A stretch of 64,000 nt of DNA, taken from the NCBI RefSeq assembly GCF_954871325.1, contig NC_088775.1, positions 92,791,655 to 92,855,654 of the forward strand, read 5' to 3'. Below are positions 33,637-37,612 of this stretch, in pieces. The translations under genes and the position numbers were made by a program. The stretch's first letter is position 1, and every line of letters starts with the position of its first letter. The DNA comes from Gordionus sp. m RMFG-2023. Its lineage: Eukaryota > Nematomorpha > Gordioida > Chordodea > Parachordodidae. Under the pieces are notes generated by a model, which saw nothing but the letters and a program-made list of their open reading frames with translations, made no database searches and had not been told where the DNA came from.

Positions 33637-33905
33637 TCTCTTCTCTTCTCTTCTCTTCTCTTCTCTTCTCTTCTCTTCTCTTCTCTTCTCTTCTCTTCTC
33701 TTCTCTTCTCTCTCTTCTCTTCTCTTCTCTTCTCTTCTCTTCTCTTCTCTTCTCTTCTCTTCTCTTCTCTTCTCTTCTCTTCTCTTCTCTTCTTCTTCTC
33801 TTCTCTTCTCTTCTCTTCTTCTTCTCTTCTCTTCTCTTCTCTTCTATTCTCTTCTCTTCTCTTCTCTTCTCTTCTCTTCTCTTCTCTTCTCTTCTCTTCT
33901 CTTCT
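33637..33905. repeat. (CTCTT)n pentanucleotide microsatellite, long
   Basis: About 53 units of the same pentamer as at 1871-2024, with a few interruptions (CTCTCTT, TTCTTCTTC, CTATT). The Leu/Ser/Phe open frame is an artefact of the array. Confidence 0.97.
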
Positions 33906-34439
33906 ATAATTTTTTTACTTTCAAAATTATGTTATATTTCCAAATTCTGAGCTAATTCTTACAAGAATAATTAATTATATTTTAAATTTTTTTATTGATT
34001 AAATACTTTCTTTTAATATATATATATATATATTTTTTTATCAGTTTTCAAAAAAAAAGCAGACGTAAAAAATAATATTAGCCACAAACAAGATTTTCAT
34101 TTTTCGTTAATTTGTTCGTATAAAATAAAATTTAGGGGTGGTTGAACCGTTATAACCGCTCAGTTCCACTCCGCTAAATTTTAAACGGTTTTTACCCGTT
34201 TGTTCTCATGAATTCATATTGGCTTCCATTTTTTTTTAAAATTAATCACGTGGTTTATTTTTTTTTTAATTGGCCCAATAATAATTTTAAAAAAATTAAA
34301 TTTCTTTAATTAAGGCCGTGTCCTAAATCAAAAAAATAATTTCGCAAAAGTTTTGCGAAATGCACAACTTTAGCGAGTTTTGCGAGATACGAAACATGTC
34401 CAGAATCATACATTTATTTTCAATTTTAAATTGTTTGAT

Positions 34440-35677
34440 ATGCATGATATACTATTTCTCTATTTTATATTATTTGAAGATACGACTGAGTCTAGAAGAA
34501 GGCATAGATTTTTAGAAGGACGGTATATATGATATGATTTATATTATATGTATTAATTCTAGAGATCAAGGAATTTTTAGAACATTTGATAGTATTCCTT
34601 CATATCCTGACAAATTTCGTCAGATGTTCCATATGCATGTGGAAACATTTAATTACATTCTTACAAAATTGGAATCTATAGACACCACTATAGTTATACA
34701 TAAAAATTCTATCAGTATGAAGCATAGACTATATATAACACTCATGTATGATGATTATTTTTTTATATAATATCTATATATTTATAGATATTTGACAACT
34801 GGTATGAGCTTTAGAAAAATAGCTTTATATGCTAAGATTGGCAAAACATCAGTAAGTACAATAGTTACATCAACTTGTAGATTAATATGGATTGGTCTTC
34901 AACCCAAGCATCTCTGTTTACCAACAGTTGAACAGATGCTTGAAATTTCAGCAGAATATTTCAGGAAATCAGGTTTTCCTCATATAATAGGATCTATTGA
35001 TGGAAAACATGTTAAAATAAAACAACCTAAAAAAAGTGGTTCCACATTTTATAATTATAAAAAATACAACTCCATTGTCATTCAAGGTATTTCAGATGAT
35101 AAAGCTAGGTAATTATATATTTTCTAAATTTTAATTCTTTTCTAGATTCATGTTGATTGAAGTTGGCTTTCCTGGGTCTATCTCAGATAGAAGTATCTTT
35201 TCAAAGAGCCTATTTTATGAAGGAATGATCAATAAAATCATCAAGATACCCAATCCAAATTTTTTACCATCTACAGATATTAGAGCACCTTATGTATTTG
35301 TAGGTGATGATGCTTATCCCCTATTGGATTTTATTATGAAACCCTACAAAACTAATTTGAATGATAATAAATCAACTTTCAATACTAAATTATCAAAAGC
35401 CAGAGTATCAATAGAGAGATGCTTTGGCATCATGAGTGCCAAATTCAGACATCTTTACAAACCTTCAGAAACAAATATTACAAACACTATACAAATAGTT
35501 AAGGCTGACTGCCTTTTGCATAATATTATAATAGATCTTGATGGAAATCATAGCACAGATATAAATCATGAACAATACCCAATACTCAATTTTACCCAAT
35601 CTCAGTTCCAGCGATGGACTGAAAGCTCTAATAATATTAGAGAAACTTTTAATTTATTTGTAAATAATTATATGTAA
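34440..35677 (+). CDS. Harbinger DDE transposase (HARBI1-like nuclease), 4 exons
   Basis: Nuclease that cuts and joins the transposon, acting in the nucleus with the Myb-like partner. Exons 34440-34522, 34563-34745, 34788-35108 and 35146-35677 total 1119 bases, so 372 residues, close to the roughly 350 of HARBI1. The three introns are only 40, 42 and 37 bases, all GT-AG and phase-consistent. The DDE_4 triad is present: Asp160 in GSIDGKHV, Asp210 in FPGSISDRSIF and Glu286 in ARVSIERCFG. The GDDAYPLLDF patch (canonical GDSGYPL) lies between. The N-terminal half has the usual FRTFDSIP...FRQMFHM..ETFNYIL and TTGMSFRKIA helix-turn-helix region. The ATG at 34440 is the only in-frame start I found for exon 1. 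All key residues are intact, so it could be active. Confidence 0.9.
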
Positions 35678-35995
35678 AATTTTTGTACACATTAATTTTT
35701 GATTCCCATAATCTTATATTTCTTAATTCCCATAACCTTATATCTCTTATGAATGTTTTCATTTGTCAAAGTTATATAATTTATTTATAAATATTCAATA
35801 AAAAGTGCAAATAAAAGTGTTGTTTTGATTACATTATATAAGTAAGTTATTTCTAATTAATTTAATGAGTAAGACAAATGACTAAATTTCAATAATTTTT
35901 ATTATAAATAAATATACAAAATATGTTTAACATATTATGGTATTAAAAATTAAGATATAAAAATGTATAAATTAATTAAAAAAATACAGTATAAA

Positions 35996-37052
35996 CTAAA
36001 CTAACATTGTTGTTATAAATTTTAATTTAAAATCAAAAATTTCTTTATCAGTCATAATATTAAATTGAGCTTGATATGATTTGAAAAAACCCATAATATT
36101 ATGGGGATCATCTCCTTGGGATGTATGTTTGGCAGCAAAACCTATTTTAAAAATTAATAATTATTAAATATATAAATGTACCCCTAAATATCTCCATTTT
36201 TTCATCTTCATACTTCTTAGATTTTTTAGCTTTAGATTTAGGAGTATCTAAATTCTTCCTCTTTGAGCTACATGGATTAATATTTTCTTTATTAAAAGAA
36301 TTGTCTAACTATAATTAAATTAATAATATATACATAAAATTAATTTAACCTCTAAAATTTCTTTCTCATATATATCAGTAGGATTAACAATATCAGTTAA
36401 AAGATCATGTGTATTTAACTCGTAATCCTAATATATAGTTCATTATATACATTTCATGTTATAATACCTGTGATGATGTTTGTACATTCACCACATCTTG
36501 GATATTTTGTTCATAATCCTAAAATATTGTTATTATATAATTATAATTTCATGTTATAATACCTGTGATGATGTTTGTACATTCACCACATCTTGGATAT
36601 TTTGTTCATAATCCTAAAATATTGTTATTATATAATTATAATTTCATTTTATAATACATGTGAAGATATTTGATCCAAACTAAAACTTGCCTCTGCATTC
36701 TTACAAATATCTTCCACATTATCTTTTAGCCAAAAATAATCTTCTATAAATTTCAAGTGCCTACTGCTTATCATAGCAGCACCAGAACCTATATAAAATT
36801 AAATTATAATATATTTAATAATATCATACCTGATTTTTTTGAAAGGGAATAAAATTTATTAAATTTTGACTTTATAGCTGTGAACTTTTTTTTTATTTGC
36901 TCATAGTTTAATTCATATATCTTCCCTATCTCTTCCCATTTTATTTTACTTGCTGCAGTGTCCCTATATTTGAGGTCGCTATTACACCAAAGAAATCTAT
37001 GAGGCCTTATTTTTTCCATCAAATTAGATTCATTCGCCATCTTTTCGCACAA
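35996..37052 (-). CDS. Harbinger Myb/SANT-like DNA-binding partner, 7 exons
   Basis: Second protein of PIF/Harbinger elements, which binds the subterminal DNA and helps bring the transposase to the nucleus. Minus-strand exons: 36830-37052, 36658-36788, 36563-36613, 36468-36518, 36350-36427, 36182-36308, 35996-36141. The total is 807 bases, so 268 residues, all in phase. Exon 1 carries the MADF/SANT-like trihelix: LWCNSDLKYRDTAASKIKWE, then IGKIYELNYEQIKKKFTAIK. Exons 3 and 4 are identical 51-base exons (DYEQNIQDVVNVQTSSQ), products of a 95-base tandem duplication. A basic KRKNLDTPKSKAKKSKK-like stretch in exon 6 may be a nuclear signal. An internal Met at 37040 is an alternative start. Confidence 0.83.
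36461..36650. repeat. 95-base tandem duplication of an exon plus its intron
   Basis: Two identical units, 36461-36555 and 36556-36650, with a third, diverged partial unit beyond. Each unit contains one 51-base exon and the adjoining 44-base intron of the Myb-like gene. The splice sites are duplicated exactly, so the frame is preserved and the protein gains 17 residues. Confidence 0.92.
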
Positions 37053-37334
37053 ATTACAAAAGTTTAAAGAAAAAAAGATTAAAGTTTTACGAATCGTAAA
37101 ATTTGTAAGAATCGTGTAATATGCGCAAAATCGAAAAAATCATTTAGGCCAACATTTTAATTTTCCGTTTAAAATGGCTTATATTTTTTTTTCGTTAAAC
37201 TCGCGCAAATTGCGCGAGATTATTTTTATGCAATTTTTGATATTTAGGACATAGCCTAACATGAATGTTAAGAAATTATAAATTATATTTCAAATATTTT
37301 AAAATTGTGGTAATATGATGCATAGAATAATATT

Positions 37335-37612
37335 TTGACTGACAAGCGTCGCCGAATGCAAATCAGCTGGACCCGCCATCTTGGCGGCAACCTATATAGT
37401 AATTATTCTCATGTTAAAAACTACTATTAAATTGATAACTCGCTTTCCTTTTTATCTCGATGATCAGGCAATTCCTTATACTTCAGACATAGGAATAAAT
37501 TGGCCTCTCGTTTAAATTTTTTTTTAAATAATGATACGGGTAATCAAAATGGCGTCCCCAGCTGTTTTTATTGATATACGCACTTTTAATGAATGCATCG
37601 TTAGTCTAGGTT
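37335..37612. mobile_element. MITE family A copy 4
   Basis: Runs from TTGACTGACAAGCGTCGCCG through AATCAGCTGGACCCGCCAT to AAAATGGCGTCCCCAGCTG and GCATCGTTAGTCTAGG. It lies less than 100 bases outside the Harbinger element. About 275 bases, no coding capacity. Confidence 0.85.

Follow-up and report, generated by a model that had tools for sequence, protein, structure and literature searches.

Structure of the element

We analyzed a 64,000-nucleotide stretch of the genome of the hairworm Gordionus sp. m RMFG-2023 (the window). At positions 34314 to 37256 it contains a complete PIF/Harbinger DNA transposon of 2,943 bp, oriented along the plus strand, which starts with GGCCGTGT and ends with ACATAGCC. 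The element carries two converging genes, one for a transposase on the plus strand and one for an accessory protein with a MADF (Myb/SANT-like) domain on the minus strand. It is flanked on both sides by a perfectly duplicated TAA (34311 to 34313 and 37257 to 37259), a target-site duplication of the 3 bp expected of PIF/Harbinger. A preliminary description of this DNA had proposed the same coordinates, inverted termini, perfect duplication, and gene arrangement; reading the sequence at both ends showed the coordinates to be exact and the termini to be imperfect inverted repeats (a 25-nucleotide arm pair with 80% identity). The outermost 15 bases of these repeats, GGCCGTGTCCTAAAT at 34314 to 34328 on the left and its minus-strand partner at 37242 to 37256 on the right, agree in length with the ∼15-bp termini of PIF/Harbinger elements and pair at 13 of 15 positions by eye. 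With at most one mismatch allowed, this 15-base terminus was found 210 times in the genome versus 4 times for a reversed control.

All five occurrences of the motif TTTGCG/CGCAAA within the element fall inside the outer 240 bp of either end, and the same regions hold 21 of its 25 CpG sites. Those on the left (34343 to 34384) are putative sites at which the MADF protein binds. With two open genes, the element differs from a miniature inverted-repeat transposable element, which is short and noncoding. An Rfam scan of the window at gathering scores returned no match.

The transposase gene (34440 to 35677) consists of four exons (34440 to 34522, 34563 to 34745, 34788 to 35108, and 35146 to 35677) separated by GT-AG introns of 40 (34523 to 34562), 42 (34746 to 34787), and 37 (35109 to 35145) nucleotides, all on the plus strand. 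Its 372-residue product is identical throughout to an NCBI entry, "uncharacterized protein LOC135931473 [Gordionus sp. m RMFG-2023]," and contains the DDE_Tnp_4 domain typical of PIF/Harbinger transposases (3.3e-30); a sequence search of solved structures gave no match up to E 1. Of the catalytic triad first proposed (Asp160, Asp210, and Glu286), Asp160 and Glu286 stand. Judged by the predicted fold and by the usual arrangement of DDE nucleases, the second aspartate is most likely Asp250 rather than Asp210. Asp160, Asp250, and Glu286 were invariant across 36 aligned sequences, as was Asp210.

The accessory gene (35996 to 37040, minus strand) was delimited by its spliced frame, its domain match, and an NCBI model. 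Its seven exons encode 264 residues; the preliminary description had given 268, along with the correct size of 372 for the transposase. The protein contains a MADF domain (4.4e-07), as expected of the Myb/SANT/MADF second gene of PIF/Harbinger elements. From 37040 to 35996 its introns measure 41, 44, 44, 40, 41, and 40 nucleotides, all with GT-AG ends, and the exon models of the two genes thus bear out the claim of nine introns of 37 to 44 nucleotides. The gene corresponds to NCBI LOC135931474, for which the isoform returned (X2) has 247 residues and equals our model minus one 17-residue tandem exon. This exon is part of a perfect 95-bp tandem duplication of exon plus intron (36451 to 36640, minus strand), which adds 17 residues to the protein. 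Two tandem units, not always identical to each other, are also present in five other full-length young copies of the element, and another NCBI protein (P0046) likewise carries two. The second unit was not found in an alignment of eight older copies or in the young copies C1_93.09m, C1_52.1p, and C1_32.1p. NCBI therefore already lists both proteins of the element, spliced identically (the second without one tandem exon), as uncharacterized and not as transposon proteins.

Copies, age, and intactness

Does the element belong to a family that moved recently? We searched the genome for copies and scored 40 of 290 candidates, so that all copy counts are lower bounds: at least 76 matching stretches in at least 37 loci. 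The preliminary description had proposed a search for near-identical copies, and six were found with at least 97% identity over the full length or almost. The nearest relative of the window copy differs from it at 14 of 2,939 aligned bases. Over 2,944 alignment columns, the window copy itself shows 5 private substitutions, the fewest per base among ten young copies. Eight of the other nine have 0.24 to 1.39%; the count for C1_93.09m (68) was left out, as misalignment around an insertion of 0.7 kb has probably raised it. Target-site duplications matched in six of the ten young copies. Two deletion derivatives, one at C1:52.1 Mb and one at C1:32.1 Mb, are less than 1% different and have perfect TAA duplications, and in the match listing C1:52.1 and C2:63.4 Mb share deletion ends. 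From these observations we conclude that the family has moved recently, deleted members included.

Among 18 aligned copies, the window copy is the only one in which both genes are open. C2_29.4p has only its transposase frame open, whereas C5_12.83m (263 residues), C1_93.09m, and C1_32.1p (247 residues each, with one tandem unit) have only the MADF frame open. It had been argued that disabling changes common to all genomic copies would speak against a whole, possibly active element; the window copy, with both genes open, has none of that kind. A frameshift thought to be common to three copies was rejected, as it is common only to the inverted pair at C1:16.39 Mb and C5_12.83m has its own.

The short introns recur in other copies. 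Among the 18 aligned, 10 have transposase introns of exactly 40, 42, and 37 nucleotides with GT-AG ends, and these ten include four older copies (∼79 to 85% identity by BLAST). C1_86.76 has GT-AG introns of 40, 39, and 37 nucleotides, intron ends are broken in C5_12.83m, C1_30.28, C2_30.15, and C3_2.82m, and three derivatives have lost introns by deletion. Introns of this size fit the range of the host, since one host gene, for a chaperonin, has introns of 47 and 41 nucleotides (one locus, by eye); its other exon gaps reach several kilobases. The open genes, the low number of private substitutions, the conserved introns, and the NCBI proteins that match the frames together support the description of this Harbinger element as whole and young.

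Relative to the eight older copies, the ratio of nonsynonymous to synonymous substitution rates (dN/dS) was 0.13 to 0.25 for the transposase and 0.23 to 0.31 for the MADF gene. These values show purifying selection on both genes; both proteins were therefore needed during the history of the family. Substitution counts between near-identical copies are too small to judge selection, and AT-rich alignment, which conceals changes, makes the intron and intergenic divergences from the older-copy comparison doubtful.

Mosaic copies and exchange of MADF segments

We compared the window copy with the eight older copies in 200-base steps. Divergence was 1 to 17% over 34314 to 35913 and 14 to 32% over 35914 to 37113, which corresponds to the MADF gene (one misaligned C1_80.6 step, 48%, was excluded). 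In the last step it was 8 to 13% in six older copies, with C1_80.6 (42%, misaligned) and C3_2.82m (unaligned there) excluded. Four older copies differed from the window by 18.7 to 20.1% over 35714 to 36713 and by 9.4 to 11.1% over 34314 to 35713. Synonymous differences from C1_76.456 showed the same pattern: the transposase carried 66 over 237 sites, the MADF gene 70 over 133 (Fisher P = 3e-06). The MADF gene of the window lineage may have a history other than that of its transposase, with the whole gene acquired by exchange, or it may only have diverged faster.

Two derivatives, at C3:89412-91497 (L062) and C4:10896646-10898678 (L063), have one internal deletion in common. Over 35714 to 36713 they differ from the window at 8 of 993 bases (C3) and 10 of 988 (C4), versus 10 to 18% elsewhere. 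We then typed them at 259 diagnostic sites with a fixed difference between the window type (A, six copies) and the older type (B, four copies). Both derivatives are B on the left (with few other letters or gaps), followed by a long A run, then B again, and some A near the right end; the long run contains a single gap in the C3 derivative, and a gap plus one B in the C4 derivative. This pattern reads clearly as a recombinant with a ∼1-kb window-type MADF segment within an older backbone. Exchange between family members therefore occurs. The two derivatives lie at separate sites with perfect TGA and TTA duplications, and thus the recombinant has itself transposed. The exchanged piece comprises the 3′ part of the MADF gene and a stretch beyond it; the DNA-binding domain is encoded by an exon that is not window type in them (22% from the window). 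To our knowledge, based on a limited literature search, no such segment exchange has been reported in Harbinger elements.

One candidate feature, a subterminal motif that changes along with the MADF type, was rejected: on the left, TTTTGCGA is retained by most copies of either type. Separately, over 34714 to 34913 the copies at C1:42.88 Mb (L023) and C3:25.90 Mb (L024) are 1 to 2% from the window, with 6 to 8% in neighboring steps, and may thus mark an additional conversion tract within the transposase gene.

Both orientations were matched in 7 of the 37 loci found, a count that stands without a matched control from same-orientation neighbors. We examined five inverted (palindromic) pairs, at C1:16.386-16.393, C1:75.481-75.486, C1:76.935-76.941, C1:83.278-83.283, and C3:2.823-2.826 Mb, with arm identities of 98.9, 97.9, 93.3, 90.9, and 97.2%. 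The outer arms end within ∼15 bases of the 5′ end of the element in three of the five by direct match and in a fourth by extrapolation; in the remaining pair the outer arm ends at about position 334. Because the arms are not identical, simple assembly folds are disfavored, and the pairs were likely caused by aberrant gap repair or local transposition. We tentatively propose, at somewhat less than even odds, that this Harbinger family is an exchange system in which MADF segments recombine between subfamilies unlinked from the transposase, the recombinants transpose, and the same repair leaves inverted pairs that could act as hairpin silencing loci.

Interpretation and relation to known elements

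We consider the window element to be an autonomous-type PIF/Harbinger transposon of the cut-and-paste kind that is complete in structure and was inserted recently into the Gordionus genome, with a probability of about 90%. Its identity as an intact PIF/Harbinger element is near certain; judged from its sequence, it is possibly autonomous, and the odds that it is active at present are about even. In itself it is an ordinary example of a well-known kind of transposon. By analogy with studied relatives, the transposase would be an RNase-H-fold DDE nuclease (Asp160, Asp250, and Glu286) that cuts at the inverted termini, and the MADF protein would bind the subterminal sites, for which TTTTGCG motifs are candidates, and deliver the transposase to the DNA and bring it into the nucleus. 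On insertion a 3-bp target would then be duplicated, TAA at the window copy.

According to the cited accounts, insect PIF elements combine a transposase with a MADF/Myb-like gene, ∼15-bp termini, and typically a 3-bp target duplication (PMC9710019). The Gordionus element resembles them in its gene pair, termini, and duplication and differs in its nine introns of 37 to 44 nucleotides, its nematomorph host, and its duplicated exon-intron unit. For rice Ping/Pong and zebrafish Harbinger3_DR, both proteins are described as required for movement, and the zebrafish Myb-like protein as binding a subterminal motif and needing contact with the transposase for the nuclear gathering of both (PMC9710019, PMC10288884). 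The two-protein makeup, with a DNA-binding partner aiding the transposase, is shared; activity has been demonstrated for those systems, whereas the Gordionus element is known from sequence alone and likened to them by description. Our literature search, within the collection of papers it covered, found none joining Nematomorpha and Harbinger and none whose title concerned hairworm transposons or hairworm genomes.

Several observations weigh against a complete and recently inserted element. The outer bases of the termini agree at only 13 of 15 positions. Four of the ten young copies are without a matching duplication (in C1_16.387p it is off by one base, in C2_29.4p and C1_74.0m the ends are altered, and in C2_63.4p the right end is not aligned). 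The remaining 17 aligned copies each miss one or both open genes, and the family may be dying; further copies lie unseen beyond the 40 candidates scored. The older copies behind the dN/dS values of 0.13 to 0.31 are degraded, which is expected to push the ratio toward 1, not below it. An empty site was not recovered: apart from itself, the left flank (33905 to 34313) matched at three places, none longer than 57 bases, and on the right, among 40 scored of 1,798 candidates, a dispersed repeat starts mostly ∼90 bases beyond the insertion without crossing it.

Is the window copy whole by anatomy but dead? Silencing or a private substitution could have disabled it, and the recent movement of the family would then be due to proteins of other copies. 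The copy does carry five private substitutions, and proteins could act in trans, with the transposase open at C2_29.4p and the MADF frame open at C5_12.83m, C1_93.09m, and C1_32.1p; however, no disabling change is visible in its frames, splice sites, termini, or acidic residues. We regard this as a serious alternative, slightly less probable than its opposite.

A recent horizontal transfer of the family from arthropod hosts is not supported by our data and is very improbable. The closest named relatives outside Gordionus are arthropods, animals that hairworms parasitize, but the best is just 44% identical (named plant proteins, 19 to 23%), and a naming bias in the database is likely. In a tree whose midpoint root is a drawing aid and whose long branches drew program warnings, both Gordionus proteins of this family lie on a long branch of their own, outside the large group that includes the insect proteins; that group contains another Gordionus protein, P0025. 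Copies at ∼80% identity within the genome imply long residence, and a search of viral contigs as a transfer vector gave four pattern stretches, none of them a relative. Least probable of all is that the two are domesticated host genes without a mobile element, like the co-domesticated pairs HARBI1/NAIF1 and DPLG7/DPM7 of the same protein families: the open frames, purifying selection, and uncharacterized NCBI labels would fit, but domestication is marked in the cited account by absent termini and absent related copies (PMC9710019), and the Gordionus element has intact termini, an intact target duplication, and near-identical dispersed copies.

The element gives Nematomorpha a complete, young, testable two-protein Harbinger, and its broken sister copies and deletion derivatives can serve as natural controls. 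With the mosaic copies one could ask directly if the transposase and its accessory partner have to coevolve or can be mixed.

As for the surroundings of the element, a CTTCT microsatellite lies to its left (33800 to 33910), and the dispersed repeat that adjoins the insertion on the right (37344 to 37611) is ∼78 to 88% identical among 40 scored of 1,798 candidate places.
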